DNA of 64,000 bases, taken from IMG/VR virus record IMGVR_UViG_3300033144_008489, positions 1 to 64,000 of that record; one strand, 5' to 3'. The position numbers and the translations under genes were made by a program. Within the stretch, counting starts at the first letter, position 1. Each line of letters starts with the position of its first letter. The DNA is from a virus. This document shows, piece by piece, positions 7,252 through 50,550 of the stretch. The notes under the pieces were generated by a model. The model had not been told where the DNA came from, ran no database searches, and saw only the letters and a program-made list of their open reading frames with translations.

Positions 7252-7938
7252 TCACGAAAAGAGATCGACGACTTCTTGAACCGCGGGCTTGAGTTGGAAG
7301 CGATCCGCAACGAGACGTTTCTCGAAATCCCGCATCAACATGATCGCAGCTTTGGGATCACGCGGGGTGCCCTGGCCTCGGAACTGTTTCACCAAATCCT
7401 GCGACTGTTTGTAAATTTCACGAACGTACTTGCGTTCGATTTTCGGGATGACCGACTGCAAAAACCATTTGCCGAAAACTTTAAATTCACGATCCCGATC
7501 ACGGCTCTGAGCCATCTCAGGGATCTGCATGTTGTTCCAGTGGCTCGGCACCGCGCCGTACCACAGGTAGATGTTCTGGATCGCTCGAAGAGCCCGGTTC
7601 GCGTCTCTCGACATCGAGGGCCAATGTTTCCCGTTGATGAGGAACCAGTTGAAGTACAGCGGATCTACGCCAGCTCGGCGTGCGAACTGGGCCTCAGCCC
7701 TCTGGATGCCACCGATCTCCGACTTGATGGTCGCGATGAGGACCTTCAACGTCGCGTCGTACGCATCCTGGACGGACTGCTCCCGTGCGCGCGGCGTCAT
7801 TTTGACCGCAGGCGGAAGATCCGCAGGGACCGTTTGTGTGGGCGGACGCTTCTGGCCCCGCTGGGCCCTGTCCACCAGGTTGTCGAGCCACGCCCAGGCG
7901 ACCTTCTCGTGATTCGGGCTGAGCGTGGAAAGAGTCAT
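7252..7938 (-). CDS. Hypothetical protein
   Basis: 228 aa from the ATG at 7938, which overlaps the upstream stop by ATGA (7935-7938). The open frame reaches 8049, but the longer N-terminus overlaps the upstream gene and is low-quality. The protein is basic and mostly helical, with a Trp/Tyr-rich centre (residues ~105-135) and a Lys/Arg-rich C-terminal third. No signal peptide, transmembrane segment or recognisable motif was found. It lies directly before the SNF2 helicase in an operon with replication genes, so a nucleic-acid-related role is possible, but I do not recognise the family. Confidence 0.75.
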   Translation of the reverse strand: MTLSTLSPNHEKVAWAWLDNLVDRAQRGQKRPPTQTVPADLPPAVKMTPRAREQSVQDAYDATLKVLIATIKSEIGGIQRAEAQFARRAGVDPLYFNWFLINGKHWPSMSRDANRALRAIQNIYLWYGAVPSHWNNMQIPEMAQSRDRDREFKVFGKWFLQSVIPKIERKYVREIYKQSQDLVKQFRGQGTPRDPKAAIMLMRDFEKRLVADRFQLKPAVQEVVDLFS

Positions 7939-8756
7939 GTAGGAGGGTCCCGAACGTCGATGACGACACGGCCGGGACCGGAGATGTGAAAATCGGCCCC
8001 TCGAACAGTTCGCGTCGTGCGTACCTGTCCATAGGGATGTATAGACCAATCAACGTCAGGCATCTCCAAACGACCCTGCACATCCTTTTCGAGGATCGTT
8101 GGAACGTGCGGCACCATTTTCACGATCTGCTTGGCCACTTCGGTCATTTCCAAGGAGTGCATCCCAGCCGCCCTCAGCGCACCTTGGGTCTTGTTCCCTA
8201 CGATGCCGTCGATCGCGCCGACGTTGTAACCGATCCGGTGCAGGTGAGTTTGGACGAGCCGCTCGGTCCCGCGCCCGCCTTCCCACTTTCCTACGTCAAG
8301 TTGTGCAGCAGCACAAAAACCCGGCCACGCAGCCTCACCACGACCGGCCCCCAGGAGCTGGTCCATCATCGTGGTCCACTCTCCGAAGAAGTGAAACACC
8401 TGATCGTGGGGCCCTGGTAACGGGTAGCGCGTGTACGGAGTGAACCCCAACGGCACCGTGAGCCCCCACAGCATCGCCAATTCACGCTCACGCCGCGTTG
8501 CCTCGGAGCCTTCGTCCTTGTTCATCTCCAGGCGCATGTAAACTTCACGCCCCGTCGAAACCGCGCTCCACTCGGGAGGGAGCCCCGTCGGCCCTGGGTC
8601 CTCTCGAACCTGTCCCCACCCCATCGTCGGCTGTGGACGACCTTCAACGACGAGACTCGTGCTGAGTTTGGCAACACGCTGCTCGAGCGTCCGCAGGGCG
8701 TCCACGGTGTCCGGCGTGTACACGCCATTCTTGTGTTGGATCAGTTGATAGCGCAT
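7935..8756 (-). CDS. Peptidoglycan-binding-domain protein
   Basis: 273 aa. Residues ~165-200 match the PG_binding_1 fold: an L/VQxxLxxxGYNVGxIDGIxGxxTxxAL pattern (GYNVGAIDGIVGNKTQ is visible). This module usually anchors cell-wall hydrolases to murein. The first 160 residues and the last 70 show no lysozyme, amidase or endopeptidase signature that I recognise, and there is no signal peptide. It may be a lytic protein with an unfamiliar catalytic domain, or a virion or regulatory protein that only uses the binding fold. It starts 7 nt after the chaperonin stop and overlaps the next gene by ATGA. The domain call is moderately sure; the overall function is open. Confidence 0.72.
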   Translation of the reverse strand: MRYQLIQHKNGVYTPDTVDALRTLEQRVAKLSTSLVVEGRPQPTMGWGQVREDPGPTGLPPEWSAVSTGREVYMRLEMNKDEGSEATRRERELAMLWGLTVPLGFTPYTRYPLPGPHDQVFHFFGEWTTMMDQLLGAGRGEAAWPGFCAAAQLDVGKWEGGRGTERLVQTHLHRIGYNVGAIDGIVGNKTQGALRAAGMHSLEMTEVAKQIVKMVPHVPTILEKDVQGRLEMPDVDWSIHPYGQVRTTRTVRGADFHISGPGRVVIDVRDPPT

Positions 8757-8763
8757 GAGCTTT

Positions 8764-10392
8764 TCACGAGTTTACCCGCGTGATCACAACCTCGGCGGTC
8801 AGCAGGGTTGAGGCGGTCGAAATCGCCGTGAGCACGGTGGCCTTCACCACCGCCAAAGGGTCACAGATGACGGGGAGATCGCGGAGGTCCCGCACAGTGT
8901 CAGTGCGGGCATCCCATCCAGCCTCCCAGGAGGCCAGTGCCTTGGTAGTTCCAGGCTCCTGAGACGCCTCCAGGACGCGTTGCAGGACGACGGGTGCCTC
9001 CTTGCCCGCATTCCGGGCCAACGTCCTGAGAGGCTCCCTGAGCGCGTCCTGGAGTATCTTCGATGCGGGCCCATCCGTGGCGAATTCCAGGAAGTTCGAG
9101 AGCGCCAAGTACGCCACCCCGGCACCGGGAACGATGCCTTCGTCGATGGCCACACGAAGGGCCTCCAGCGCGTCCTCGATCCTCGCTCGCTTTTCACGAA
9201 GTTCCGTTTCGGACCACCCACCGACTCGCATTACGCAAAACCCGTCAGTCAGCTTTGCGATCCTCGTGCGGATTTCTTCGGCGTCGTGACTGAACCCGGT
9301 GTCCTCTTTTTGAAGCTGTTCGACGCGTGCTTCGATGAGCGGGAACTTGTCCTCGAACGCCACAAACGTCGCGGACTCCTTCTTCACCGTCGCCGTCTGG
9401 GCCGACCCCAACATCTCCGACGTGAACTTGTCGAGAGGCGTCACCAAAGGGTCGAGCACGGTCGCCCCGGTGAGCGCAGCCAAGTCGTCCAGGTGGGAAC
9501 GCATGAAATCGATATGGCCCGGACATCGAACAGCGATCACCTCGAACTTGCCCCCGTCACCACGCTCGAGTTTCCGGTCGTTGGCGATCAACACCTTGAG
9601 CGCGTCAGCGAAGCACCCACGCGACACGATGATGAGGGGGTGCGGGAACTGACTAGCCTGCTCCAAGATGGAGCTCACATCTTTCAAGGTCGTGAGCTCC
9701 GCATCGATCAACGCAACCAGCGGCACGTCCATGTGACGAGGTCCCCCGTCAGGGCCAGAGAGATCGCTGCTCTCCCACCCCTTCTCGATCTCCATCCCGG
9801 TCTTGTGATCGAGCTCGATCCCCCGGCTCTTCCCCTCCTCGACCACGATGATGCCTTCGGACCCCACACGGCCGAACGCATCCACAAGGGCGTCGGCGAT
9901 CTCCTCGTCTCCGTTGCTGGCAGTCAAAGCGACTTGCCGCATCAGCAGCTCGCTATCGACGGGAACGGGGCACATCACGTCCCATAACTCGGAGTGCTCG
10001 AAACTCTGGGCAATCCGTTGAAGGTGCTGGGCAAGCCGAGCTGGGTGCTCTCCGGCGGCCACGTACTTGAGGCTCTGTCGGAGGATCGCATGAACCAAAA
10101 TCGCAGTGGTCGTCGTGCCATCCCCACATGCTTTGTTGACCTTGTCGCAGGCTTCTTGGAGGAGGCGGGTTCCCAGCCGTGCGAGCGGGTCTGCCGGCTC
10201 GATTTCCCACGCGACAGACACCCCGTCTTTCGTGGAAAGAACACCGCCGGCTCGATCCAGCATCACGGTGCGCCCTCGGGGTCCGTAGGTAGCGGCGACC
10301 ACTCGGGTCATCTCAGCCACCCCAGCCAGCATACGGCGCCTGGCCGCAAGGCCCTGAGTCACCCGGATAGGTTGTTTCTTTCGTCGTCTCAC
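8764..10392 (-). CDS. groEL-like: GroEL-type chaperonin (HSP60)
   Basis: 542 aa from a GTG at 10392, collinear with GroEL throughout. ATPase residues are intact: YGPRGRTVMLD (36-46), TKDGVSVAWEIE (54-65), GDGTTTT (90-96), and IEDALEALR carrying the Asp equivalent of E. coli Asp398, followed by EGIVPGAGVAYL. In the apical domain the GroES/substrate contact stretch RGYLSPYF of E. coli reads KGWESSDL, so several key hydrophobic residues differ. The C-terminus ends VVITRVNS with no Gly-Gly-Met tail. No groES is visible in the window. Phage GroEL homologues are known from some jumbo phages. It heads the left operon behind a terminator and may fold large phage proteins. A paralogous host gene is unlikely given the phage context. 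Confidence 0.95.
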   Translation of the reverse strand: MRRRKKQPIRVTQGLAARRRMLAGVAEMTRVVAATYGPRGRTVMLDRAGGVLSTKDGVSVAWEIEPADPLARLGTRLLQEACDKVNKACGDGTTTTAILVHAILRQSLKYVAAGEHPARLAQHLQRIAQSFEHSELWDVMCPVPVDSELLMRQVALTASNGDEEIADALVDAFGRVGSEGIIVVEEGKSRGIELDHKTGMEIEKGWESSDLSGPDGGPRHMDVPLVALIDAELTTLKDVSSILEQASQFPHPLIIVSRGCFADALKVLIANDRKLERGDGGKFEVIAVRCPGHIDFMRSHLDDLAALTGATVLDPLVTPLDKFTSEMLGSAQTATVKKESATFVAFEDKFPLIEARVEQLQKEDTGFSHDAEEIRTRIAKLTDGFCVMRVGGWSETELREKRARIEDALEALRVAIDEGIVPGAGVAYLALSNFLEFATDGPASKILQDALREPLRTLARNAGKEAPVVLQRVLEASQEPGTTKALASWEAGWDARTDTVRDLRDLPVICDPLAVVKATVLTAISTASTLLTAEVVITRVNS

Positions 10393-10467
10393 AGCACAAA
10401 GAAGGGGAAGTTCCCCTCATTCTACGCAGGTCATAGCCTAGTAATCGTCACGACCTGAATCCAAGGC
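10393..10467 (-). promoter_or_regulatory. Leader and likely promoter region of the chaperonin-helicase operon
   Basis: This is the 75 nt between the terminator's T-tract and the GTG of the chaperonin gene, on the minus strand. A new transcript should start here because the previous one is terminated just upstream. I see only weak hexamers (TTGCCT near 10467 with an AT-containing stretch 17-24 nt on, including TATGAC), so no specific promoter is claimed. A perfect palindrome lies close to the start codon (separate entry). Confidence 0.3.
10403..10417. promoter_or_regulatory. Perfect palindrome in chaperonin leader
   Basis: aggggaagttcccct has 7-nt perfectly complementary arms around a central base, ending 11 nt upstream of the GTG start (minus strand). 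It could be an operator for a dimeric regulator or a small hairpin over the ribosome-binding region. The arms contain the only purine-rich stretch (AGGGGAA) that could act as a Shine-Dalgarno sequence. Role unproven. Confidence 0.35.
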
Positions 10468-10500
10468 AAAAAAAAGGGCCCGACCTTGTGAGTCGGGCCC
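10468..10500 (-). terminator. Rho-independent terminator of the late (structural) operon
   Basis: A 9-bp perfect GC-rich stem (gggcccgac / gtcgggccc, 10476-10484 and 10492-10500) encloses a 7-nt loop. On the minus strand it is followed by eight T residues (10475-10468). Geometry and T-tract fit leftward transcripts ending 18 nt after the stop of the membrane protein gene. Confidence 0.9.
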
Positions 10501-10517
10501 TTCCACATCACGCAACG

Positions 10518-11099
10518 CTACGCAGTGCTTTCCTCAGCATCCTTTTTGGAGAGGAAGTGCTTGAGCACCATCTCCCAGAGACCGACAGCCGCGACACCCG
10601 TTGTGGCACCTCCGACAATCGCATCCGTCATGTTGGCACCATCCGTCATGAGTGCGGCCACAACGTAGCCGACCACGCCGATCACAGCCGTGACCCACGG
10701 AAGCATCTTGGCAGGAACCTTGGCAAGCACCTTCGCCTTGCGCAGACCGAACACGAGTAACGAAAGGCCGAGACCCAACGCGAGACCCCAGTGCTTTTCC
10801 TGAATGGCGGTGAACAGCGCTGACGCTGCGGCAACCGCCTCGTCATCACTGGTGATTTCTGCCTTGGCTTCGTCCTTCGCGTCGACCTTGGCATCGCCTT
10901 CTTTGCCGTCTCCGGCTTTGGCGTCATCAGCTTTGGCGTCAGGCGCTTTGGCGTCGTCAGCCTTAGCGTCAGCTTTGGCGTCGTCGGTTTTGGTATCCCC
11001 AGTGGCAGCCGCGGCAGCCACAGGCGCCTCAGCAAGTACAGGGGCGCTGATGGTGAAAACGGCCAGCAACGCTAGCAGCATCATGAGTCGGTTCTTCAT
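10518..11099 (-). CDS. Secreted/membrane protein with D/K/A repeats, holin candidate
   Basis: 193 aa. The N-terminus is a clear Sec signal peptide (MKNRLMM, hydrophobic core, cleavage likely after VLA, residue 23). Residues ~34-80 are a flexible Ala/Lys/Asp repeat region with DDAKA/DAKA units. The C-terminal half has about three hydrophobic segments (103-119, 133-151, 158-176) and ends with charged residues (KHFLSKKDAEESTA). Size, topology and position as the last gene before the terminator suggest a holin or other lysis/envelope protein. A membrane-anchored virion or superinfection protein is the alternative. ATGA overlap (11096-11099) couples it to the gene before it. Confidence 0.75.
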   Translation of the reverse strand: MKNRLMMLLALLAVFTISAPVLAEAPVAAAAATGDTKTDDAKADAKADDAKAPDAKADDAKAGDGKEGDAKVDAKDEAKAEITSDDEAVAAASALFTAIQEKHWGLALGLGLSLLVFGLRKAKVLAKVPAKMLPWVTAVIGVVGYVVAALMTDGANMTDAIVGGATTGVAAVGLWEMVLKHFLSKKDAEESTA

Positions 11100-11485
11100 G
11101 GTTCTTCTCCTTGGTGTTCGGCCAAGATCGTCTTGACGACCAGAGCCTTGGTATCACCGGGTTTGACTTCCAGACCTTCCTGATATGCGTAGAGATAAAG
11201 CCGTGAATGCGGCAGCGTAGAGAGTGTTTCGAAGGTGGCACCGTCGAAGTCGAGTTCGATCTCAACGACAGGCATCGGTCCAGGGTCTATCGCCCCCGGT
11301 TGAGGCGTATCCGTCCATTTGTACTCTTTTGGTTTTCCAAGAAACCCCAACATGTTTTGCAGGGTGATCCGGTCCGTGGCCGAAAGGCCAGGTTGTCGCA
11401 GCTTCTCCTGGAGTCTCCGCCGTTGCCGCTGAATGTGCGGCTTCCGGAGCTCAATGGAGATCATTTGCTGCGACAAATGGTTCAT
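11096..11485 (-). CDS. Hypothetical protein with SAP-like C-terminal helix pair
   Basis: 129 aa. The first 45 residues are a basic helical segment (RKPHIQRQRRRLQEKL). Residues ~88-124 (LYLYAYQEGLEVKPGDTK and the following helix) resemble the SAP/LEM-type pattern: helix, Gly-x-x-x-x-x-Gly-x-Thr/Lys loop, helix. Such folds bind nucleic acid or occur as small modules in phage head/tail proteins. The gene overlaps both neighbours by ATGA (11482-11485 and 11096-11099). Function unknown; the SAP comparison is tentative. Confidence 0.65.
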   Translation of the reverse strand: MNHLSQQMISIELRKPHIQRQRRRLQEKLRQPGLSATDRITLQNMLGFLGKPKEYKWTDTPQPGAIDPGPMPVVEIELDFDGATFETLSTLPHSRLYLYAYQEGLEVKPGDTKALVVKTILAEHQGEEP

Positions 11486-14400
11486 AGAATCTCACTTTCG
11501 TCACGGCCCGGGAACGGTGCCATGGGCACGGTCTCCGGATCAGGCACGACCCGAGTGCGGCCCACGAACATGGGCTTCCCGTCGATGCGGTAACGATCGG
11601 ATGCCGCATACCCCTCACCGAAGCCGGTGGGGCTGATGATGCCGCCGATCGTGATGCCGTTCTGCTGTTGCTCGGCGCGCTCCTCACCGATGATGCCCAA
11701 GGTGAGCAACACCATCTGAATCTCGTCACCGTCCGTGGTCGTGTCGTCCGTCGAGAACGCTTCCTCGACGAAGTTGCGAACCAACAGAGCCTTGCAAGCC
11801 AGCAGACCACCCTTGAGCACCGGCATCAGAGCAGGCGCCATGGTGTCGGAGAACCAGTCCACAGGACCACCAGGGTTGCGACCGCCGAGCACGAGGCTCG
11901 AGCCGCCACCACGGAACAGACGGAAACTCCTGGAACCACCTGGGTTGGTGTCCTCGTTGAAGGCCGTGTACTGGAGGATCGCGCCATCCGACGAAGCTAT
12001 CAACTCGCCAGGGGACCCCGCGAACCGTGTGAACTCCTCACCGGCCGAAGCGGTCAGAGGCAACAGACTCTGCACCGGACGAATCCCTCCGAAGAAGGTG
12101 TTGACGGCCGAAGCGGTGTCGTTGAGCGGGTTCTCGCCGATGAAGTCGGAGTCCTGCAACAGAAGACCCAGCGGCATCCGCTCGGTCATACCGGTGAGGT
12201 CCAACTGCGTCGTTCCGTTGCCGGCGTTGAGACGAAGATCCTCACCACCAAGCAAACTGGTCGTCGTCAACAACGCGTTGAGTCCTTGCGCGCCCGTGGT
12301 CGGGACCTTGAGCAAGAAGTCGTCCGTGTTGTTGATCTGGACCTTGACCTCGTTGCCTGCAGCTCCCACCTCGAATGCCACGATCTCGATCTGAGGCGAG
12401 TCGATGTCGTTGAACGCGGCCACGATGCTCTGGATCTCGGTTCGAGCATTGATCTTCGTCCACAGCTCGCGTGCCACGACGGCCACATCAGGCGACGAAG
12501 CATCGAACTCATCGACGGCGGCAGTAGCCCCGTTGACACCCGTGAAGATCACGGGAAGCCCTGCGGGGGTGAAGATCGTGAGCGCCGAAACGGTGTAGTC
12601 GAAGACCGGAACCGTTGCCGACGAACCAGTGATCTCGAGGACAGCCTGAGCACGGTCCGTGTTGACGTTCGCCTGTCCCTCCGTGAAGGAACGGGTCAGG
12701 ATCTTCCAGGCCGGTGTGTTCGACGCTGGAGGAATGCGGTCTGCCGCGGGCAGTGCATCGTTGGTGTACCCGACATCGGTCACGGTGCCGGCGAACAAAC
12801 GACCGCCGATATTTCCCGTACCCATCGTCGTATAGAAATCCACAGCGGCGAGGACTTGGAACGACCGAGCGTTGGGACGCTCAGGGATTTGGTCCCCTTC
12901 TGCGTCGAACTGCTGGATGGACTCGTTCATGCCGAACGCATTGCCCTGAGAGACCTGTCCGTAGCGGTTCTCGTAGTCCGTGGTCGTCCGAGTCGCCCCT
13001 TGGCGAGTCATGTACGGGTCGCCCTGGTACACGGTGCGGTTGTACGCCGTGTAGAGGCGGCTCGAATCAGGCGCCGACGACGGGATGTTCATGAACGCAC
13101 CCGAAAGTTCGGGGTTGTCGATGTCCTGTCGGAGCGTGCCCTGGCCGTTGTGGCGACGAGCCATCACGAAGTTGTTCTCGTTGATCCACCCGTTGCCGAA
13201 CCCGTAGGAGGTGAACTCAAGCACATACTCAAGCTGCTCCGGGATCTCCCCGCCCACGAACTCCGGGGACTTGCTGATGTCGATCGTGTTGAACGGGACG
13301 ATGTACGTGTGGTCTCCGCGTACTCCGGTCAAATCGAACGCACCGTCTTCACAGATGAAGAGGGTCTGCTTGTCCGCATCGCGACGCAACAAGTTGACGG
13401 CCGGGTTGGCTTCGGGAGTGACACGGTCACTCTGGAAAGTCACACCACCCTTGGCCACGAAGTCACGTCGGTCGTAGACCCCGTACAGCCGGGCGATGCC
13501 CAGGTACGGCGGCAACATGATGCCCTTGAGGCCCGAACCGAAGTCCGAACTGACAACGCCGTTGAGCTTCGCGGTGATCTCAGCCGCCTCAGAGCAACCG
13601 TCCCCGATTTCGGTGGTCAAACGACCCTGGTAGGCGGGCGTGAGCGTGGCCAAGATGGTCGCGTACTGGCCGTACTCGAGACCGCCGGTGGCACCGGTTT
13701 GGAGGTAGAACGGAGTGACCTGAACGCCACCCGTCTGGTTGTCCTCACCGCCGATGATGTCGAACACGGGGTTCGTCAGATTGGTGCTGTCGCTGAACAG
13801 GTGGTTGATGCCTTCCAAGAAGACACCGGCCCCGAAAATCGGACCGTTGTCCTGGAAGTAGGGGATGTCCTGACGACCGAAGCGCGGCACGTACTGGGAC
13901 GGCACCGGGTACCCCATGCGCAGACCGGTCGTGAAGATGTTGGCATCGTCCTTGGGACCGTCCCAACCGTTGGGGATGAGGGACGGGTTCGGGTACTGGG
14001 TCCCGTTGAGCGGATTGGCGATCGTCGCCGCACCGAGCAACGTGTCAGTGTTGGCCGGCGGGAGCGACGTGAGGTCGGCCAGATCCGTGATGATCGTGAA
14101 CCCCTGGAAGGTCATCGCCTGCCGCTGGAACGGCCGGAACATCAGGGTCTTGGAGCCGTTGTCGAAGAAACTCTCGTTTTCACGATCGATCTCCGAACTC
14201 AGGACAACGTTGCCGCCGTAGTCCGGTGCCTGCGGAGCCGCAAGACCCAAACTGGGCAACCGGTTCCACGTCTGGACATGCGTGGGGCAGTAATCGACCT
14301 CGGCCGGGTTCCCAGGAGCGCCCGTCTCATTCGGGAAGTTGGGATCGAGAACCGCTTTGCTCTGACGAAGAATCGTACTGAGCGGCGACTGGATCGTGAT

Positions 14401-17187
14401 GCGGTTGATCTTGTCCGGCACACGAGCCATAGCCCCACGTCCGGGGTGGTACATCATCGTGACGTTCAAGACGGCCTTGAAATCGAACGGGGTCGTCAGC
14501 GAATGGCCCGGCTTCACACCAGGGTTGATGTTCTCCACGTTCCAAGGGTTCGACGCCCCACCCGCAACAGCCCGAAGGTCCGTGCAAGTGATGGTCATCG
14601 CAGCAGGGCCACCGGCCGAGCCGTTTCCGTCCTCGGAGTTGGTGATCTGCGACCGCATCTCGACCGTGACAGTCTTGGTGGTCGTGTTGTCGAAGTCATC
14701 GATCCCCTGCGAGATGAACTCGACACGAAGTCGGTTGCTCTGGCTGGCAGGGTTGGTGGTCAAGCCACCGTTGGCAGACGTGGTGCCCGCTCCGATGACG
14801 CGGAAAGCTCCGTTGTTCGCGGTGGTCTCGTCATCACCGAAGATGATGAGGTACACCTCCGACGACTTGCCGGTGATGTCCTTGCCTCCGTTGGTAAGGA
14901 GATCCCACAGGGTTCGCTGGCCCCGAATGACGGGGAAGTTCAAGAGGTTCGGGTCATTGGCGAACGCTCCCAGAGCGGTGGCACTCCACCAATCTGCCGG
15001 GGTATCGAAATCGATACCGGGCAAGACGATCTCGCCCTCTCCCAGAGGGATGGTGCCACCAGAGAGACTGTTCCCCTCAAGTTGAGTCGCACCATCGACG
15101 CCTGTGATGACAGAGGCCGTGTTGAGGACGCCGCCACACACCAGGAAGGGCTTCTCGAAGTCCTGTGACTGGAGCGGGTACATCGGTCCCGGGTGTTCGG
15201 TCGCGGTCTGACCTGGGCCAGCCGGCGTCAGGGACTGGAGTCCAGCTCCGGCTGCTGCGTTTCCGTTGTTGAACTCGGTCGAGTTCACCCAAAGGAGCGA
15301 CACCGGATGTTGCAGTCCCGTGTTGCTGTTGGGGAACTGGGTCTTCCAGTACTCCTGCGGAGCAACGAAACGAACGGCACGCGTACCGCCATCACGGAAC
15401 GTCTTGCGAGCTCCGTTGGAGCCGTCGTCACCACCGATGTACAGGAAAATCGTGGTGCCGTCGGTGAATCCCGGCGTCGTGTTGTTGATGTTGTTCATGA
15501 ACGCGGCGGGTTTGAAATCCGCGCCAACGTCCCAGTCCACCAGATCGTCGAGGGTCTGAATGAACCCCGCGTTGATGGTGCCATCGGGGTTGAGCAACAA
15601 CGTCACATCACCTTGAATGGCTGCAGCGTCCGACCAGATTTGTCGGATGCCGTCAGGACCATCAAGCGCTTCGGTGCCAAAAGGAGCCGCCGTGCCGCCG
15701 TCTTGGAGGAGGTAATCCACCTCGGTGATCGTCACGCCTTGCGTGTCGCCACCGTCGTTGCCGGCCTGCTTCCAGGTGGAGCGTAGACGGTTGCGCATCA
15801 GAGCGGCGACATTGTGCAGCAAGATGCGGCTGTAGTCCCAGTCTCCGAGGTTGCAGCCACGACGCAGGTCGAGGATGTCATCTTGTGCGATCTCGTCGGC
15901 GAACAAGCCGTCGTCACGCGTGTTGAAAAAGTTCACCGGGGTGCCGGAGCCAACATCGCCGTTGATGTTACGTCCCACATGGGTAAGAGGGTCGCTTCCC
16001 CACCGACCACGGCCACCTGCTGGAATCGTGATGGTATTGGGAGAGGAGGTGGTATCTACCGCCGAGATGCCGATCACCTCGTCATCCAGCACCATGAAAG
16101 CGTTCGTCAGGTTGATGTTGGGGTCGTCCCAACCCGAACCGATGAGGTTGTCCACCTCGATGAGGGTGTCCACGGTGAACTGCTCAGGGAGCATGTCGTT
16201 CACCAACGCCATGGTGGTCAGACGCTTAGCCCCGTCTTGCGGATCGGCCAAAGTGGCTGCCGAGGGGTTACGATCAAACGCACCGTTCTGGTTCGGGTTG
16301 CCGCTCAGGTTGACTGCCACGAACGGCTGGTTGTTGCGCCGGAACACGGCGCACATGGGAACCGCGTAGACGTAACCGTCGGTGGTGCCCAGGGTGTTCT
16401 GGGGGTCTCCGTCGCCGGCACGCCAGAGGGAGGGGTCCCCCAAAGGGTTGCGCATGTTGGCGAAGGTGAACGCGGTGATCGAACTCTGAGGTCCTTGAGC
16501 GAAGACGTTGGGGTCGCCCAAGCCATCCGGGTAAACCGAGAGATCCGGGCTCGAGCCCGCACCTGATCCTGAGCCCACGACCCGAATCTGGTACTGGAGC
16601 TGGACGCGCTCCGTGGTCTCGAAACCGATAGTCGGATCCGTGATGTCGTCGTCGAGGTTGGTGGCGCCGAACTCGACGTTGCCCCACTTCCAGATCTTGT
16701 CCGCCGCAGGCTTGTTGGCCGTGCTGGGATTGGGCGCGACATTGACGGTCCACGCCTCCAGGAAAATGAAGTCAATCCGGGCATCGCTCTCAGGGGGCGG
16801 GAACAGATTGATCTGGTTGGTAGTCGTCCCCTCCTGAATGATGTTGCTGCCAGCAACGGGGATGATCCAACCGTTGACGTTGGCATACATCACCGGAGCA
16901 AGCTCTTCGGGATCGCCGTCAGCGTCGTCCTTCTGCTGAGCGAACTCAAACAGGTTCGACCACGAGCCGTTTGTCACGAAGTCTTCGAGCGCACGAGTGG
17001 GGTCCAAGAAGAACCCGGAATGCGCTTCCGCCCGAACCATCTGGGCGAGCTGTTCGACCTGGTCCTGCTGGACGAGATTTAACTCGCTATCTAGCGGTGG
17101 CATCCCGGTCTGGAAAACCACGGTTTGAAACTGACGCGCGAACGCGTCGAGAGTGCGGCTCACGCCATTCCCAAAATCTTGACTCAT
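11482..17187 (-). CDS. Very large virion structural protein (paralogue of the 1,143-aa protein)
   Basis: 1,901 aa, preceded by a good ribosome-binding sequence (AAGGAGC). The N-terminal ~450 residues share an ordered set of motifs with the protein at 27441-30872: DFIFLEAW (~141-148), DDITDPTIGFETTERVQLQY (~180-199), DGYVYAVPMCAVFRRN and DDILDLRRG. These are characteristic of a phage virion family I have seen in large phages without an assigned role. The remainder is beta-rich and Asn/Gly/Thr-rich with few Lys, typical of fibres or baseplate-attached appendages. Near the C-terminus (about 12240-12670) is a flagellin/FliD-like module ending LLGGEDL. No enzymatic motif, signal peptide or membrane segment is seen. 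It is likely an external tail component, inferred from composition and context. Confidence 0.85.
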   Translation of the reverse strand: MSQDFGNGVSRTLDAFARQFQTVVFQTGMPPLDSELNLVQQDQVEQLAQMVRAEAHSGFFLDPTRALEDFVTNGSWSNLFEFAQQKDDADGDPEELAPVMYANVNGWIIPVAGSNIIQEGTTTNQINLFPPPESDARIDFIFLEAWTVNVAPNPSTANKPAADKIWKWGNVEFGATNLDDDITDPTIGFETTERVQLQYQIRVVGSGSGAGSSPDLSVYPDGLGDPNVFAQGPQSSITAFTFANMRNPLGDPSLWRAGDGDPQNTLGTTDGYVYAVPMCAVFRRNNQPFVAVNLSGNPNQNGAFDRNPSAATLADPQDGAKRLTTMALVNDMLPEQFTVDTLIEVDNLIGSGWDDPNINLTNAFMVLDDEVIGISAVDTTSSPNTITIPAGGRGRWGSDPLTHVGRNINGDVGSGTPVNFFNTRDDGLFADEIAQDDILDLRRGCNLGDWDYSRILLHNVAALMRNRLRSTWKQAGNDGGDTQGVTITEVDYLLQDGGTAAPFGTEALDGPDGIRQIWSDAAAIQGDVTLLLNPDGTINAGFIQTLDDLVDWDVGADFKPAAFMNNINNTTPGFTDGTTIFLYIGGDDGSNGARKTFRDGGTRAVRFVAPQEYWKTQFPNSNTGLQHPVSLLWVNSTEFNNGNAAAGAGLQSLTPAGPGQTATEHPGPMYPLQSQDFEKPFLVCGGVLNTASVITGVDGATQLEGNSLSGGTIPLGEGEIVLPGIDFDTPADWWSATALGAFANDPNLLNFPVIRGQRTLWDLLTNGGKDITGKSSEVYLIIFGDDETTANNGAFRVIGAGTTSANGGLTTNPASQSNRLRVEFISQGIDDFDNTTTKTVTVEMRSQITNSEDGNGSAGGPAAMTITCTDLRAVAGGASNPWNVENINPGVKPGHSLTTPFDFKAVLNVTMMYHPGRGAMARVPDKINRITIQSPLSTILRQSKAVLDPNFPNETGAPGNPAEVDYCPTHVQTWNRLPSLGLAAPQAPDYGGNVVLSSEIDRENESFFDNGSKTLMFRPFQRQAMTFQGFTIITDLADLTSLPPANTDTLLGAATIANPLNGTQYPNPSLIPNGWDGPKDDANIFTTGLRMGYPVPSQYVPRFGRQDIPYFQDNGPIFGAGVFLEGINHLFSDSTNLTNPVFDIIGGEDNQTGGVQVTPFYLQTGATGGLEYGQYATILATLTPAYQGRLTTEIGDGCSEAAEITAKLNGVVSSDFGSGLKGIMLPPYLGIARLYGVYDRRDFVAKGGVTFQSDRVTPEANPAVNLLRRDADKQTLFICEDGAFDLTGVRGDHTYIVPFNTIDISKSPEFVGGEIPEQLEYVLEFTSYGFGNGWINENNFVMARRHNGQGTLRQDIDNPELSGAFMNIPSSAPDSSRLYTAYNRTVYQGDPYMTRQGATRTTTDYENRYGQVSQGNAFGMNESIQQFDAEGDQIPERPNARSFQVLAAVDFYTTMGTGNIGGRLFAGTVTDVGYTNDALPAADRIPPASNTPAWKILTRSFTEGQANVNTDRAQAVLEITGSSATVPVFDYTVSALTIFTPAGLPVIFTGVNGATAAVDEFDASSPDVAVVARELWTKINARTEIQSIVAAFNDIDSPQIEIVAFEVGAAGNEVKVQINNTDDFLLKVPTTGAQGLNALLTTTSLLGGEDLRLNAGNGTTQLDLTGMTERMPLGLLLQDSDFIGENPLNDTASAVNTFFGGIRPVQSLLPLTASAGEEFTRFAGSPGELIASSDGAILQYTAFNEDTNPGGSRSFRLFRGGGSSLVLGGRNPGGPVDWFSDTMAPALMPVLKGGLLACKALLVRNFVEEAFSTDDTTTDGDEIQMVLLTLGIIGEERAEQQQNGITIGGIISPTGFGEGYAASDRYRIDGKPMFVGRTRVVPDPETVPMAPFPGRDESEIL

Positions 17188-17190
17188 AGC

Positions 17191-18426
17191 TCAAAGGCTC
17201 CTTGCAGCCGGTAATCCGTACCGGCGTCGATGATTCGAAACTGTGCTCCGGTCGATCCCAAGTTGTCTGGCGAGAGCAGAGTCAGACACTGTACCGACGA
17301 GTGCATGCCACGTCGGTGTTGAAGGGGTGTAAATCGGGACGGACATTTTGCGTCGGTAGTGCAGAACGGTGGCCGGAGAAATTCCGAACTTCGTAGCCAC
17401 ATGAGAATCGGGCATCCCTCCAACTGAGGAGTGCCACGGACGTGGGGCAATCTTCTTTGCCGGGGGCACCGGATCAATGCCCAGTTTTTTCCGAGCAAGG
17501 GCAACGGTGCTAACGGCCTTCCCGGTTTTCTTGGCGATCTGTCGATCCGGCAGTTGACCGAACCAGCGATGCCACGGTTGGGAACGCACCCCACGGAGAG
17601 GCTCGTAAGGGTCTCGTTCCGTGATCAGACCCCCAACGTCGGCCCGCATCGCACACCAGTTTTTCCAGACCTGGTGCTTGCGCTCGAGCCGTACACCGTC
17701 GCCTTCGTAGATGGCCTTGCAGAACAACTCGGCTTGGCTGCCATCCATACGGACCGTTTTCTCGGTCACCGTATGGGGCACTCCAAGGGTTTGGAGAAGC
17801 CGCGAAAGAAACAAGCGATCTTTCTTCGGATAACACACGATAGTGCTTCGGAGAGTTTTCCCTTTTGGCATTTTCGCGTTTTTGATGAACATGACAGAGC
17901 CGTCCCCATCACAAACCCCTCGTAGGAAATGGCTCACCATTGCATCCGGGACCTGCATCAGCCCATTGGCTTCTTTCGACTTGCGAGGACGAATGCCCAG
18001 ATCTCTGAGACGTGTCACTAGCGTATCGCTTGCGGTTATCGACCTGTACTGAGTCTTGGTGCTGTTGATGACGCATCCCTGGATCATCCCCGGCTCAGGG
18101 ATCACAACAGAAATCTTGTTCGGATTACCAACGAACCCGTGGAACCATGTCGTCTGTTCTGGGTCTGTGCTGATGAATTGGAGGCGCCAAGATCCGTGCT
18201 TCGGTTTGGTGATGTTGCCGTCGCTGAAAATCAGACCGAGCGCGTAGGCCATGTCGGGTGTCCACGCATCGAAAGCGTCGAGCCGGAATTTCAATTCAGA
18301 CTTCTGACGTTGAAGGGCACCTCGACACTGCGAGGAGCACGTTTGCGCAACGCTGTACTTGCTCGTGTCGAACGGCGACTCACAGACCGTGCAGGTCGCC
18401 GTCTTCCTGTATCTACGTTTGGCCAT
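17191..18426 (-). CDS. Free-standing LAGLIDADG homing endonuclease with three helix-turn-helix repeats
   Basis: 411 aa from the ATG at 18426 (the open frame continues upstream into the neighbouring gene in another frame). The N-terminus has a Cys4 knuckle (Cys12, 15, 30, 34). Two LAGLIDADG helices, ALGLIFSDG (62-70) and LRGVCDGDG (168-176), carry the catalytic acidic residues. The C-terminus has three tandem ~40-aa repeats beginning at Trp285, Trp331 and Trp373 with the pattern W-h-x-x-h-G-x-x-x-D-x-x-h-A-x-x-x-G-x-x-x-x-T-V; each looks like a helix-turn-helix recognition unit. It sits in a 2-nt/3-nt gap between two structural genes, breaking neither, the usual place of intergenic homing genes. 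It is expected to nick or cut intron- or gene-less alleles of this locus in competing phages. Confidence 0.92.
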   Translation of the reverse strand: MAKRRYRKTATCTVCESPFDTSKYSVAQTCSSQCRGALQRQKSELKFRLDAFDAWTPDMAYALGLIFSDGNITKPKHGSWRLQFISTDPEQTTWFHGFVGNPNKISVVIPEPGMIQGCVINSTKTQYRSITASDTLVTRLRDLGIRPRKSKEANGLMQVPDAMVSHFLRGVCDGDGSVMFIKNAKMPKGKTLRSTIVCYPKKDRLFLSRLLQTLGVPHTVTEKTVRMDGSQAELFCKAIYEGDGVRLERKHQVWKNWCAMRADVGGLITERDPYEPLRGVRSQPWHRWFGQLPDRQIAKKTGKAVSTVALARKKLGIDPVPPAKKIAPRPWHSSVGGMPDSHVATKFGISPATVLHYRRKMSVPIYTPSTPTWHALVGTVSDSALARQLGIDRSTVSNHRRRYGLPAARSL

Positions 18427-18427
18427 C

Positions 18428-19216
18428 TTAAAAAAGCAACCCGTAGTGCGCGATGAAGCGCTTGTTGAGGGAGTTGGTGTTCTTGAAAGCCAACCGGATG
18501 AGGAGCCCGGGGGTGCAGAACGCAACTGGGAGCAACCGCTCGATCGGAAAATAGTTGGCACCATCGTTGATCGAGATGAAGACCTCGAAGTCAGACGGTT
18601 CTTGGTCGATCTCAAGGACCTCCCGGATCGCCGGAGAGTTCTGACCCGTAAAAGTTCCGAAGCTGGACCGCACGTCAACGGTCGTCGAAAATTCGTACAC
18701 GTACCAATAAACGGCAAACTCCGTAGCGCCGATCCCACCGGTGAGTGGACCCACGTCGATGGTGTTCGTAACGATCACGCCGGGACGTTCAAAGCCAGGA
18801 CCCACACTCTCATTTTGAGGAAGGACCGCGACCGAGTTCGCAGCATTTCCCGAAGGGAGGGGCCCGGCCGTCCCACGACCAAATTGGAATCGTGAAATGT
18901 AGGAATCCGTCACCGGAGACCCTTCGTTCAAAACACCCGCCGGATCGAGATCGTCGATATCGCCGCCCTCGATGAGGGGGTTGAAGAGGACGTTTTCAAA
19001 CTGCGGGTGTTGGACGAGTAACCCTGCGAAGTTCCGCGCTACCACCGAGTTGGGATCGGAGGTGGGGATGATGAAACTATCGGGCTCAACAGCGACCTTC
19101 ACCCCCTCTGCGATAGGGACCATGTACTGGCCATTCCGAGCCACGCCCACGCCATTGGGTGGGTTCTTCTCCAACTGGATGATCTCGTTCGAGTCGAGTG
19201 TCGCAACGATCCTCAT
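18428..19216 (-). CDS. Putative virion structural protein
   Basis: 262 aa, preceded by GGGGGA as ribosome-binding sequence. It is beta-rich with Asn/Gly/Pro turns, no signal peptide and no membrane segment. The C-terminal part (VYWYVYEFSTTVDVRSS through SINDGANYFPIERL) looks like a beta-sandwich module of the kind found in tail and baseplate proteins. It is the first gene after the plus-strand cargo gene and is followed 1 nt later by the homing endonuclease gene. I do not recognise the family; the structural role is inferred from neighbours and composition. Confidence 0.7.
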   Translation of the reverse strand: MRIVATLDSNEIIQLEKNPPNGVGVARNGQYMVPIAEGVKVAVEPDSFIIPTSDPNSVVARNFAGLLVQHPQFENVLFNPLIEGGDIDDLDPAGVLNEGSPVTDSYISRFQFGRGTAGPLPSGNAANSVAVLPQNESVGPGFERPGVIVTNTIDVGPLTGGIGATEFAVYWYVYEFSTTVDVRSSFGTFTGQNSPAIREVLEIDQEPSDFEVFISINDGANYFPIERLLPVAFCTPGLLIRLAFKNTNSLNKRFIAHYGLLF

Positions 19217-24263: not shown

Positions 24264-26201
24264 TTACGGGAACGGGGTGGGAGGCCCGTAGGGAGTTGCA
24301 TCGTTGGGGCCCAGGCCAGTGCTGTGCCGAAGAAGGGTGACGCCCGTGAGAGCACGAGGAACATCCGTAGTCGCGCTAGGCCCTCCCTGTGTGAAGTTCA
24401 GCGCAAGACCTCCTCCGGAACGAATCCGGGCACGGAAGAACACGGGAGCAACCCCGGCAGCCGCTCCAGCAACTGCGCCGGTATTGGCGAAGATGTTGAT
24501 GGCCGGCCCCACGTTCACACGCACCTGACAAAACACAGTACCGGTGACAGCGTCACGCCCATCGAAAGTCGCAGTGGGGTCGATGATCTGGCACCCGGCA
24601 CCATCGGCCAGAGGATCTTGTTTCGACGGACCGTCCATGTCCTTGCGACCCATGTCCATCCATGTCGTGAGGCCAGGGATCTTGAGCTCGAGCGCAATCT
24701 CAGGGCTACCCGGTCCCGCAGGCGTGTACACAAAATCAGCCAGCGTGAGCCCGTCGATACGGAACGTCAAAAAGGGCTGACCCACAACGGTGGGCTCCTG
24801 ATCTGGGGCTGCCTGGTTGCTGTAGGCAGCATCGAACATCCGGTAGTAGAACCGATCAGCGGCACCACCAGCCGAGTAGTCGAACTGCGCAGCAGTGATG
24901 TCACCATCCGCCAGGGAAGGGCGGAAGCCACCGCCCAGGTAATCGATCTGCGGGAAGAGCACCTGACCGCTGAACGGACACGGGTTCTCGACCCCGTCCG
25001 TAGCTGGCGGATCGCGATCTGGAAGCCCGCTGACTTGGAGCTCAAGCAGAACGAGGCCACTCGTAGCAAGGTCCTCAACGTAATAGTCCGCACGCAGGTA
25101 AGACGCGCTGCCGAATGTTGCGAAAGGCTCACCGGCAAACCGGACTGGAAGCTCGAGAGGGCCTCCAGGTCCAAAAGGAAGTCCCGGTCCTACCAAGTTG
25201 CCGATCCCCAACCCGGCGTTGTAACTCGCATCGATCGAGACCAGCGTCGTCTCAGCGACACGGTAGACCTCGTCATAGAACCGCTCTTCCACGTCCTTGC
25301 GAGGGTTCTCGAGGTTGACACGAGGAGGCGAATCGCCAGCACCGGTCTTGAAGTTGCCGTAGTCACCACCGCTGTCGAACGACGGCGAATGGGACGTGGT
25401 GTGCATGAGCAGCGAATCCCCTGTGGGGTTCGGGAACAAGAACGTCGTGTTCGGGGTCGTCGCGTCTTGCTGGTTCTGCGGTTTCCGAGCGAAGACTCGA
25501 AGCCTTGCGTCGAACCAGAAGTGACACTGGTTGTCGTCACCGCCGAATGTGACCGCCGTATCACCACCGAGAAGGATGATGTCCGCCGAATCCAGGGTGG
25601 TCGGGCCAACGGTCAGATCGAAGGGCCCGCTCACGGAGTCGAGGTCCGTGTAGTTGAAATCCACGCGCTGGTAAAACGCGGTGCCGGTGTAGCCGACGCC
25701 CAGGCCATTGATGATGTTGGAGTCGGCCGTGGCCATCCCCAGGTACAGGATGGTGTTCGGCCGGTGCCAAAAACCCGGAGTCTCGTCTGTGGGCGGAAGG
25801 TTGTCATCGCCCAGCAGATACGTGGGCGAGAACATCCCGCTCGCACCCCACGTCAGCGTATCAATCTGCCAGTTGGTACCGATCCCGCTTCCGTTGGGAA
25901 GGAAGTATTGGATCCCCGACACGAACATGGTCTCGTCCACTTCGCTTGCGAAGGTGTACGCCGCGCCGAGAGGGCCCACGATGGTGTCAGAATCGACGAA
26001 AACCGCCGACCGGTGCAGGTGGTACGCCGTCGAGGTCGTGGGCGCGAAGGGGAGCGAAGAGTCCACCAGGTTGTCCACGCTCTCGGGGTTGATGTAGTTC
26101 ACCATGTTGGCGCTCCACATGTCGTACCCGAACCCAACGTCGTCCGGCATGATGCCGTCTCGAGCGAACGACTCGAAATCCGTTTCCCGACGGAAGTGCA
26201 A
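24264..26201 (-). CDS. Tail-fibre-like protein, C-terminal part (downstream of frameshift)
   Basis: 645 aa from an internal Met, but the true reading frame continues upstream of this ATG (NNGSYILLHFRRETDFE) into the region of the preceding ORF, and no ribosome-binding site precedes the ATG. This is therefore the C-terminal ~60% of a single ~1,055-aa gene whose N-terminal part is at 26099-27436. The sequence is beta-rich with repeated lectin-like stretches (AYHLHRSAVFVDSD, CHFWFDARLRVFA, VLLELQVSGLP, LKIPGLTTWMDMG, VFCQVRVNVG, FRARIRSGGG). It has no catalytic motif. A receptor-binding or fibre role is inferred. If the frameshift is real, this part is not made or is made only by independent initiation. 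Confidence 0.72.
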   Translation of the reverse strand: MHFRRETDFESFARDGIMPDDVGFGYDMWSANMVNYINPESVDNLVDSSLPFAPTTSTAYHLHRSAVFVDSDTIVGPLGAAYTFASEVDETMFVSGIQYFLPNGSGIGTNWQIDTLTWGASGMFSPTYLLGDDNLPPTDETPGFWHRPNTILYLGMATADSNIINGLGVGYTGTAFYQRVDFNYTDLDSVSGPFDLTVGPTTLDSADIILLGGDTAVTFGGDDNQCHFWFDARLRVFARKPQNQQDATTPNTTFLFPNPTGDSLLMHTTSHSPSFDSGGDYGNFKTGAGDSPPRVNLENPRKDVEERFYDEVYRVAETTLVSIDASYNAGLGIGNLVGPGLPFGPGGPLELPVRFAGEPFATFGSASYLRADYYVEDLATSGLVLLELQVSGLPDRDPPATDGVENPCPFSGQVLFPQIDYLGGGFRPSLADGDITAAQFDYSAGGAADRFYYRMFDAAYSNQAAPDQEPTVVGQPFLTFRIDGLTLADFVYTPAGPGSPEIALELKIPGLTTWMDMGRKDMDGPSKQDPLADGAGCQIIDPTATFDGRDAVTGTVFCQVRVNVGPAINIFANTGAVAGAAAGVAPVFFRARIRSGGGLALNFTQGGPSATTDVPRALTGVTLLRHSTGLGPNDATPYGPPTPFP

Positions 26202-27436
26202 CAGGATGTACGACCCGTTGTTCCTGCCTGCGTCAGATCCGCACCGGGATCCAACGAAACCGCAGGCTTCTCGAAATAGCGCGGCTTCTGGACAGCCGGC
26301 GTGAATTCGATGCCCGTGGCAGTCGTGTAGTCGTCGAGGTACGGCAACCGGTATCGGAAGAAGTTGTTGATGTTGCCACCACCAGTGCCTGCCGGGGTGC
26401 CACCAAAGATGGGAATCCCACCCACTACGACAGGAACCCCAGCAGCCGGGTCGGTACCCAACCGCACCTGACCCGCTCCCGGCTCAGGACCAGCAGGGAT
26501 CGCGACACCGGCCTGTGCGTCGAAACCGGTATGGATTTCGAGCAGGTCGTACTGACCAGCAGCTCGACCTGGGAACGCGAATACATTCGGGTCGCCCTCC
26601 GCGAACATGCCGCCTGGGCCTCCGTCACAGTCGCCGTCGCCGTCGCCGCCGTTGATTCCTTGGCCACACAGGAGAGCCGCAATGACACGGTCGGTCAGGG
26701 GCTGTGCCAGGAACTCCGCAATACCCCCGTCGGCCGGCCAATGGAACAGGGCAACCACACCTCGGTCTGCGGGATAGACCGCGCCAGAGAGGACCACTTC
26801 GGGGTCGGCTGCGGTGTTCAAAGTGCGCGCCGTCTCCACGACAGGGACCGTGCGCGTAAAACCACCTTGATGTGTAAACCCAGGACCCCCGCCGGTGTAG
26901 CCGCCGTCTGCCACATTGAACGTAAGGTCCGTATCCGGGTCGTTACCCGGAGTCGTGAACACATCACCCGGAGGGTTCGGAGCAATCGCAGTGGCGAAAA
27001 TGTTCTGCGCTTCGTATGGCGGGAACCAAAACTCGCTGTAGACGAAGAAATCGTTCGTCGGACTCGCCGCAACTGGAGGCGTGACATCACCGCGCTGGAC
27101 AAAACCCGCATCGCGCATCTTGAGCACACCCCAGTCGGTGATCCCCGTGAACGTCGTGACCGTTTCGAAGTTGCCGATCGTGGGAGGTCGCATCGGAACC
27201 AGGCCCGCGAGCTCATCCAGGTTCTCCTGGACATCGTTCCCATCGTAGGCACCGTTGGATCCCGTGGTCGAGATCGCCGAAGCCGGGTGCGCATCCTCGG
27301 GGTCGTTGAGGTGAGCGTCGAGCCCCTTATTCTGTCCCTCGATGACTTCGTCCGTGAACGAGTTGGAGCCCACCGAGTCCTGGTTCGCAAGACCAGTACC
27401 CTTTTGGATAGTGCCGGGATCTACTTCACGAGGCAT
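26099..27436 (-). CDS. Tail-fibre-like protein, N-terminal part (frame breaks near 26221)
   Basis: The ORF is 445 aa, but only the first ~405 residues look genuine. After DPGADLTQAG the frame turns into a Ser/Arg/Cys-rich nonsense tail while the sensible sequence continues in the -1 frame. Residues ~40-75 have the phage fibre signature LDAHLNDPEDAHPASAIS followed by NDVQENLDEL, found in neck/fibre proteins. A Gly/Asp-rich loop (GGDGDGDCDGGPGG, ~residue 270) may bind divalent cations. The gene starts 4 nt downstream of the stop of the 1,143-aa protein gene. Read with the downstream ORF it forms one ~1,055-aa protein. A missing A in an A-rich stretch (restoring gga aac aac) would repair it. Confidence 0.75.
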   Translation of the reverse strand: MPREVDPGTIQKGTGLANQDSVGSNSFTDEVIEGQNKGLDAHLNDPEDAHPASAISTTGSNGAYDGNDVQENLDELAGLVPMRPPTIGNFETVTTFTGITDWGVLKMRDAGFVQRGDVTPPVAASPTNDFFVYSEFWFPPYEAQNIFATAIAPNPPGDVFTTPGNDPDTDLTFNVADGGYTGGGPGFTHQGGFTRTVPVVETARTLNTAADPEVVLSGAVYPADRGVVALFHWPADGGIAEFLAQPLTDRVIAALLCGQGINGGDGDGDCDGGPGGMFAEGDPNVFAFPGRAAGQYDLLEIHTGFDAQAGVAIPAGPEPGAGQVRLGTDPAAGVPVVVGGIPIFGGTPAGTGGGNINNFFRYRLPYLDDYTTATGIEFTPAVQKPRYFEKPAVSLDPGADLTQAGTTGRTSCCTSVGKRISSRSLETASCRTTLGSGTTCGAPTW

Positions 27437-30874: not shown

Positions 30875-31660
30875 CTACGCTGCTTCCCTCATGCGAAACA
30901 CGGTGCGTTCACGATGACAGTTTGCACAAGTCAGTTCACACTTGGCGATTTCAGCGAGAACCTTGGGGCGTCCCCAAGACCACATATCTGAAATTTGGAT
31001 AATCTTTTCACCGTTTACGTGATCAAAATCCATGGCTTCGGGAGGAAACACCAAAGAACAACCCGTGCAAGGTGCGTCTTTGATTTCGTTGATCCACACC
31101 CGGAACTGAATCAATTTAGGGGTCTTTGCTGGCTCCCGGCGTGCGTGACTGCGGATGCGGTGACAGACACAACAGATGAGTTCACATTTCTCGATCTCAG
31201 CGAGAACACGCTCTCGACTATGGTTGGCCATTTTGCCGATGTTGTGACGTTTGACCCCTCGTACATGATCGAACTCCATCACGTAAGGAGGGAAGGTCTT
31301 GTCGCAATCGAGACACGGTTGACCGAACTTAATTTGGTCAACGAAAACTCGGTGCGCGGTGCCCTTGTCCTTGTAGTAGCCGAGCATCTTGTCCCGGTTG
31401 TCTGCAGCCCACTGTTGCCGCGCAGGCTCGTATTTCTCTTTGTTGGTCTCCCAACGCTCCTTGTTCTGGACTCGAACCTTCTCCCGGTTTTCCTGATACC
31501 AGCCTTTGCGCTTGATCTGTTGGGTCGGCGTCCTGGCGTACTCCCGGGCTTTCTTGCGCGAGCACTCCCAGCAGTAACACGCAAGGCCGTCCTTCCGGCG
31601 CTTGTTCTTGCCGAATTCGGAGGCGTCTTTATCGACGCAGCATGAGGGACAGGTCTTCAT
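30875..31660 (-). CDS. HNH endonuclease with two HNH domains
   Basis: 261 aa. The N-terminus has a Cys cluster (Cys4, 7, 28, 33) for zinc. Two similar HNH domains follow: residues ~115-172 (PCLDC ... MEFDHVRG ... CELICCVCH) and ~197-253 (PCTGC ... MDFDHVNG ... CELTCANCH). Each keeps paired zinc cysteines, the FDHV histidine/aspartate motif and the terminal CH. A basic helical linker (~residues 35-95) could contact DNA. HNH genes in virion gene blocks are usually homing endonucleases; the gene here fits into a tight gap (7 nt and 2 nt) between structural genes without disrupting either. The tandem duplication suggests a single chain able to cut both strands. Confidence 0.93.
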   Translation of the reverse strand: MKTCPSCCVDKDASEFGKNKRRKDGLACYCWECSRKKAREYARTPTQQIKRKGWYQENREKVRVQNKERWETNKEKYEPARQQWAADNRDKMLGYYKDKGTAHRVFVDQIKFGQPCLDCDKTFPPYVMEFDHVRGVKRHNIGKMANHSRERVLAEIEKCELICCVCHRIRSHARREPAKTPKLIQFRVWINEIKDAPCTGCSLVFPPEAMDFDHVNGEKIIQISDMWSWGRPKVLAEIAKCELTCANCHRERTVFRMREAA

Positions 31661-50194: not shown

Positions 50195-50550
50195 TACCCG
50201 CCCCCTCCCTTCTTGAGGCGACGCATCTTGACGCCAAGTTCGTCGATCTCACGAAGGTCACGACTGACCTGGCCTTTGCAGATGTCCCGGATCTCCCCGA
50301 GCATCTCCGCGTAAAACTTGAACGTAGGGATCTGCGCTGTATCCCCCTCCTTCACTTGGCCTTCGTTGTCCGTCCAGGAGTTGGGCTCGATACCCATCTC
50401 ACGGAGTTTCGCTTCGGCCTCCTCGACCGTCATCTTGGACAGATCAAAGTCGAACGGTGACCGGTACCGCTTCTTCTCATCGTAACCGTCAGGGCCCGGT
50501 GCAGGTCCCGTACGGAAACCGTAGTGCGGCTTTGATTTGCGTTGGGTCAT
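50194..50550 (-). CDS. Small hypothetical structural or assembly protein
   Basis: 118 aa from the ATG at 50550, which overlaps the giant gene's stop by ATGA (50547-50550); a longer frame to 50688 lies in the giant gene and reads as nonsense. The N-terminus is basic and Tyr/Gly-rich (KPHYGFRTGPAPGPDGY). The middle has a short SAP-like helix pair (MTVEEAEAKLREMGIEPNSW), and the C-terminus is a charged helix (GQVSRDLREIDELGVKMRRL) ending KKGGGG. Possibly an adaptor or assembly factor for the giant protein; family not recognised. Confidence 0.72.
   Translation of the reverse strand: MTQRKSKPHYGFRTGPAPGPDGYDEKKRYRSPFDFDLSKMTVEEAEAKLREMGIEPNSWTDNEGQVKEGDTAQIPTFKFYAEMLGEIRDICKGQVSRDLREIDELGVKMRRLKKGGGG

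Follow-up and report, generated by a model that had tools for sequence, protein, structure and literature searches.

Does a virus-encoded GroEL with a rewritten GroES-contact surface still act with the co-chaperonin of its host, with a different partner, or with none? The question is raised by a chaperonin gene at positions 8764–10392 (minus strand) of the window, the 64,000-nucleotide stretch analysed here, which is part of a 70,155-bp IMG/VR record (IMGVR_UViG_3300033144_008489). A second record, IMGVR_UViG_3300033388_006651 (G001; 146,769 bp), overlaps the first by ca. 40.7 kb at ca. 100% identity, so that the merged sequence of this only partly sequenced phage genome amounts to ca. 176 kb. 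The same strand encodes, further into the window, a Baseplate_J protein and a weak baseplate match, so that the phage is of a contractile-tail-like type; among the relatives, the checked records of 618,736, 213,010, and 485,040 bp likewise contain Baseplate_J.

Overall Architecture and Catalytic Site

The gene starts with GTG and encodes a 542-residue protein, confirmed as a full-length group I (GroEL/Cpn60) chaperonin by its sequence, catalytic residues, and predicted fold. It matches the Pfam family Cpn60_TCP1 (E = 9.4e-56) and, over nearly its whole length (residues 10–539), PHROG 5725, ‘chaperonin groEL’ (E = 3e-94). The best PDB matches are bacterial GroEL structures, scoring up to 292 bits, whereas two entries that we take to be phage-derived chaperonins score 156 and 103 bits. 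Identity to E. coli GroEL amounts to 34%, and the two proteins share the domain order, the ATPase motifs, and the predicted fold. The nucleotide-binding motif GDGTTTT (residues 90–96; positions 10105–10125, minus strand) includes D91, the equivalent of E. coli D87, and D407 (positions 9172–9174, minus strand) corresponds to the catalytic D398; with D56, equivalent to D52, all catalytic aspartates are retained in the alignment, in agreement with the preliminary description of a GroEL with an intact ATPase site. The ring–ring residues are mostly retained as well (the equivalents of K105, A109, R452, E461, and V464), which suggests that the phage chaperonin may form a double ring.

An AF2 monomer model, built from an alignment that included the relatives described below, displays the three-domain GroEL fold with a pLDDT of 86.8. 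It superimposes on GroES-bound group I subunits with TM scores of 0.82–0.85 and on apo subunits with 0.54–0.58, a similarity that stems from the domain angle the predictor settled on and carries no evidence on GroES binding. In addition, dN/dS between close members of the lineage lies at 0.09–0.13 (in some pairs the synonymous sites approach saturation), which indicates a protein maintained under purifying selection.

The GroES-Contact Loop, the Apical Groove, and the C-Terminal Tail

Compared with E. coli GroEL, the phage protein displays a rewritten GroES-contact loop, a six-residue insertion after helix I, and a shortened C-terminus, and no groES partner gene was found in its records. The E. 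coli loop RGYLSPYF (residues 197–204) is replaced by KGWESSDL (residues 204–211; positions 9760–9783, minus strand), so that the alignment bears out what had been read from the letters alone; likewise, the chain stops one residue beyond the equivalent of E. coli residue 525, and the GGM tail is absent as first described. Acidic substitution at position 203 of GroEL would be expected to affect the interaction with GroES. The hydrophobic groove is only partly altered: the alignment discloses, in E. coli numbering, L200E, Y203D, F204L, L234S, A260K, and V264A, with L237, L259, and an aromatic residue at position 199 (Y199W) kept and V263 replaced by isoleucine. Substrate-binding residues of GroEL include Y199, Y203, F204, L234, L237, L259, and V263 (PMC3268035); among the positions defined by mutagenesis, the window protein keeps S201, L237, and L259 and carries Y199W, Y203D, F204L, L234S, and V263I.

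Scans of viral contigs showed that the altered loop is shared by five other contigs, whose proteins are 62–77% identical to that of the window. These closer relatives follow the pattern [RK]G[WC]E[ST][SL][DE]L, reading RGWETSDL (L040), RGWESSEL (L041), RGWESSDL (L042), RGCESLEL (L043), and KGCESSEL (L046), and the changes at the mouth of the apical groove run through the lineage as Y199W/C, L200E, Y203D/E, F204L, and V264A/T. This conservation, together with a dN/dS of ca. 0.1, argues that KGWESSDL did not arise by chance. Two distant viral relatives, L047 (38% identity) and L044 (33%; the same locus as LR745208), also carry non-canonical loops, GGMASTEL and QGWCAHGM, respectively. The window protein and its seven relatives form one clade in the tree with 100/100 support, and all eight lack the C-terminal tail. 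Judged from these sequences, the altered loop and the loss of the tail are traits of a lineage and not of one odd protein.

Loss of the tail is already known in viral GroELs and common among them (28 of 103 sampled sequences), and GroEL itself is not rare in phages, with a match in 267 of 50,697 phage records. Odd contact loops, such as AGYCAGAF, and a missing tail also mark a second lineage of viral GroELs (L087, L095, L108, L112, L115, L116, L120, and L122); the record of L087 contains a weak Cpn10 match. A cellular source for the window gene was considered and set aside, a single scan of genome contigs having returned only an ordinary bacterial GroEL with a canonical loop.

Search for a Co-Chaperonin

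The Pfam Cpn10 model (PF00166), which recognises both E. coli GroES and T4 gp31, found no match at E ≤ 10 in the 70,155-bp record or the overlapping 146,769-bp contig of this partly sequenced phage, and none at E ≤ 1 in the records of the lineage relatives, including those of L040 (618,736 bp) and LR745208 (485,040 bp). The PHROG GroES and PHROG gp31 models were equally empty at E ≤ 10 in the records of the window and of these relatives (618 kb and 485 kb). The initial observation that no groES is seen therefore stands beyond the window itself, through the ca. 176 kb available and in relatives of up to 618 kb.

Of 14 named phages that carry groEL, eight yielded a groES with the same Cpn10 model, in several cases far from groEL: the two genes are widely separated in Vibrio phages, near each other in Cellulophaga phages, and adjacent in Flavobacterium phages. 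Since groES can be distant, its absence at the groEL locus alone means little; more weight attaches to its absence from the relatives of 618 kb and 485 kb. In Vibrio phage SRILMA (L023), groEL is flanked by the genes for the tail sheath and the tail tube, and groES is encoded at another site. Among records of at least 80 kb, a Cpn10 match occurs in 10 of the 14 with a canonical loop and in none of the 11 with other loops (Fisher p = 5e-4, on records that are related to one another). Once relatedness is controlled, a single supported loop/groES pair is left (four at most) and the test has no power, so that an association built on independent evolutionary events was discarded, the independent pairs being too few for significance. 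Three phages with non-canonical loops do carry groES (L087, L024, and L026).

The alternative that survives best is that host GroES is still used, the loop tuning affinity or fitting an unusual mobile loop of the host protein within a cycle that is otherwise GroEL-like and includes encapsulation. The equatorial and intermediate domains and the double-ring contact residues are indeed GroEL-like, the hydrophobic residues of helices H and I are kept (L237, L259, and, as isoleucine, V263), and the four large canonical-loop records without a groES of their own presumably rely on that of the host. We nevertheless consider this reading unlikely, because an acidic residue in place of Y203 and the loss of F204 are fixed in the six-member lineage, the two more distant members are also without a canonical loop, and the named canonical-loop phages mostly bring their own groES.

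A phage co-chaperonin that escaped recognition, either unrelated in sequence to GroES and gp31 or encoded in the unsequenced part of the genome and matched to the altered apical surface, is rather improbable. The partial sequencing of this phage leaves room for such a partner, T4 gp31 illustrates how strongly phage co-chaperonins can diverge, and the authors of the phage EL study could not exclude one in their system (PMC7185714). Furthermore, small ORFs occur between groEL and the terminator that precedes it in L041 (9713–9949), L042 (9578–9940), L043 (9575–9945), and L046 (2545–2946), those of L041 and L042 being acidic and homologous to each other (34%). However, the Cpn10, GroES, and gp31 models remain empty in the two largest relatives, and this leader ORF was rejected as a co-chaperonin candidate: it is missing from the records of the window and from the 618 kb record of L040, which makes it no general partner.

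Comparison with Known Phage Chaperonins

Phage chaperonins with which to compare the window protein include EL gp146, OBP gp246, and that of AR9, all phage-encoded and retaining the catalytic residues as the window protein does. The three need no co-chaperonin, and those of OBP and AR9 are single rings (PMC9598537); the EL chaperonin is unaffected by GroES, gives no mobile-loop protection, prevents aggregation, and stays open (PMC7185714). The tested substrate of the EL and AR9 chaperonins is an endolysin (PMC9598537), and for EL a timed release of the endolysin has been proposed (PMC7185714). The contact loops of AR9 (RGYITNDF) and OBP (GSFPIETQ) are non-canonical like KGWESSDL, both proteins are without the GGM tail, and no Cpn10 gene was found in the OBP or AR9 records. 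On the other hand, the window protein is closer to E. coli GroEL (34% identity) than OBP, AR9, and HHBS47 are (21–24%). The best tree sets the window lineage apart from the EL/OBP/AR9 group, with long branches, but the test does not reject a joint clade (p-AU = 0.21); a separate loss of GroES contact is thus likely. Co-chaperonin-independent phage chaperonins are already known, and on the present reading the window lineage is another, closer to bacterial GroEL. Viral chaperonins from soil, too, have been described as a group of their own that is expressed in situ (PMC8390657).

The chaperonin of LR745208, an uncultured 485-kb phage, resembles that of the window in its tryptophan at the Y199 position within QGWCAHGM, the missing tail, and the absence of a Cpn10 match in 485 kb; it differs in being only 33–36% identical and in its neighbourhood, where a 924-residue protein of no assigned function lies downstream. 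The GroELs of Vibrio, Flavobacterium, Cellulophaga, and crAss-like phages are orthologues 25–34% identical to the window protein, most of which keep [YF]..[YHF]F in the loop together with a groES in the same genome.

Gene Neighbourhood and Putative Transcription Unit

The gene order around groEL is conserved in six phages and comprises, all on the minus strand in the window, (i) a 1901-residue giant protein (positions 11482–17187), 74–86% identical in L040–L043 and L046 and without a PHROG or Pfam family match; (ii) a 129-residue protein of no family (11096–11485), 50–70% identical in the five relatives; (iii) a 193-residue holin-like membrane protein (10518–11099); (iv) groEL; (v) a 273-residue PG_binding_1 protein (7935–8756); and (vi) a 229-residue protein (7252–7941), 40–75% identical in the five relatives, followed by the helicase region. 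The holin-like protein matches a PHROG holin family (E = 2.8e-08), with Pfam holin families below cut-off, and consists of an N-terminal signal-like segment, an Ala/Asp/Lys-rich linker, and a hydrophobic C-terminal part, with 44–58% conservation in the five relatives. The PG-binding protein passes the Pfam cut-off (E = 5.9e-06) and is 65–82% identical in L040–L043 and L046. Family searches recognised no catalytic domain in it, its AF2 model was discarded (pLDDT 41), and no homologue lies near groEL in L044 or L047.

The gap between the holin-like gene and groEL contains an intrinsic terminator with a GC-rich stem and a T8 run (positions 10468–10502, minus strand; −24.4 kcal/mol), and a similar stem and T-run are found in L042, L043, and L046. 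It is followed by a putative −10-like element, CGTAGAATGAGG (positions 10415–10426, minus strand); in five of the six phages a similar element, TAGAAT or TACAAT, lies ca. 30 bp upstream of the GTG start codon. TAGAAT was not enriched (six found, nine expected) and was rejected as a late promoter used throughout the phage. The PG-binding gene begins 7 bp beyond the end of groEL, and with the terminator and the putative promoter this gives the two genes the appearance of a single transcription unit, separate from the giant gene. The weakest alternative, a non-foldase ring co-opted, for instance, to prevent a lysis protein from acting until late in infection, or to serve as scaffold or decoy, would suit the position of groEL between holin-like and PG-binding-domain genes in six phages and the timed release proposed for EL, but it is improbable given a fully conserved ATPase site, which suggests an ordinary ATP cycle, and a PG-binding protein that shows no recognised catalytic domain and has no homologue near groEL in the two distant relatives.

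Several further features of the window were recorded. Upstream of the giant gene, a 515-residue endonuclease-like ORF (17191–18738; PHROG 4645, E = 3.8e-23) shares only a 126-residue part with L040 and has no match in L041–L043; it is possibly a mobile endonuclease insertion. A 261-residue HNH endonuclease (30875–31660; PHROG 2255, E = 1e-42) lies inside the structural gene region, and a 3653-residue ORF (50547–61508) has no PHROG family match. At 24264–27436, the window is without 88 bp (at 26221/26222) relative to G001, where a single open frame of 1095 codons replaces the two ORFs of 645 and 445 residues, a difference due to either strain variation or an assembly error. Lastly, a perfect 9-bp tandem repeat of 9.6 copies (1119–1204) encodes a Glu-Asp-Ala repeat in the acidic tail of a 354-residue ORF.

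Proposed Mechanism and Biological Meaning

The window gene probably encodes a group I-type chaperonin ring of the phage that is ATPase-active and does not use canonical GroES. The preliminary description had proposed a chaperonin working without host GroES or with a different co-chaperonin, a proposal that holds in part: the lineage-wide altered loop, the empty Cpn10, GroES, and gp31 searches, and the precedent of EL, OBP, and AR9 argue for it indirectly, but host GroES is always present in the cell, part of the groove remains, and this phage is only partly sequenced. Thus, L237, L259, V263 (as isoleucine), and the aromatic residue at position 199 may preserve some affinity for GroES; the closeness of the AF2 monomer to the GroES-bound form, not decisive in itself, does not speak for an always-open ring; and the correspondence between loop and partner gene is imperfect on both sides, with canonical-loop phages without groES (4 of 14, at ≥80 kb) and the three non-canonical ones that have it.

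In mechanistic terms, an acidic residue in place of Y203 and the removal of F204 would weaken docking of the GroES mobile loop, and the ring would then act as an open, ATP-gated binder that prevents aggregation and holds and releases its client, as in EL, OBP, and AR9. The main client may, more tentatively, be phage-encoded. The first candidate would be the apparently co-transcribed PG-binding protein, and the second the giant proteins of the tail/baseplate region; the endolysin substrate of EL and AR9 makes a cell-wall-acting client a reasonable first guess, in our analysis at least as plausible as the exceptionally large virion proteins suggested initially.

A broader scenario is speculative and, as a whole, doubtful: a GroEL lineage of very large phages would have lost its dependence on GroES separately from EL, OBP, and AR9, stayed near bacterial GroEL, and joined a cassette associated with lysis, where it would retain a cell-wall-acting protein until this is released. 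If true, the lineage would represent a natural intermediate between GroEL and a lidless chaperonin. The known lidless phage chaperonins are only ca. 20–25% identical to GroEL, which makes single changes hard to interpret; the present lineage keeps the GroEL-like ATPase and ring contacts and alters few GroES-contact residues, and therefore offers a good natural test of how a GroEL can act lidless, bearing also on why very large phages carry a GroEL.
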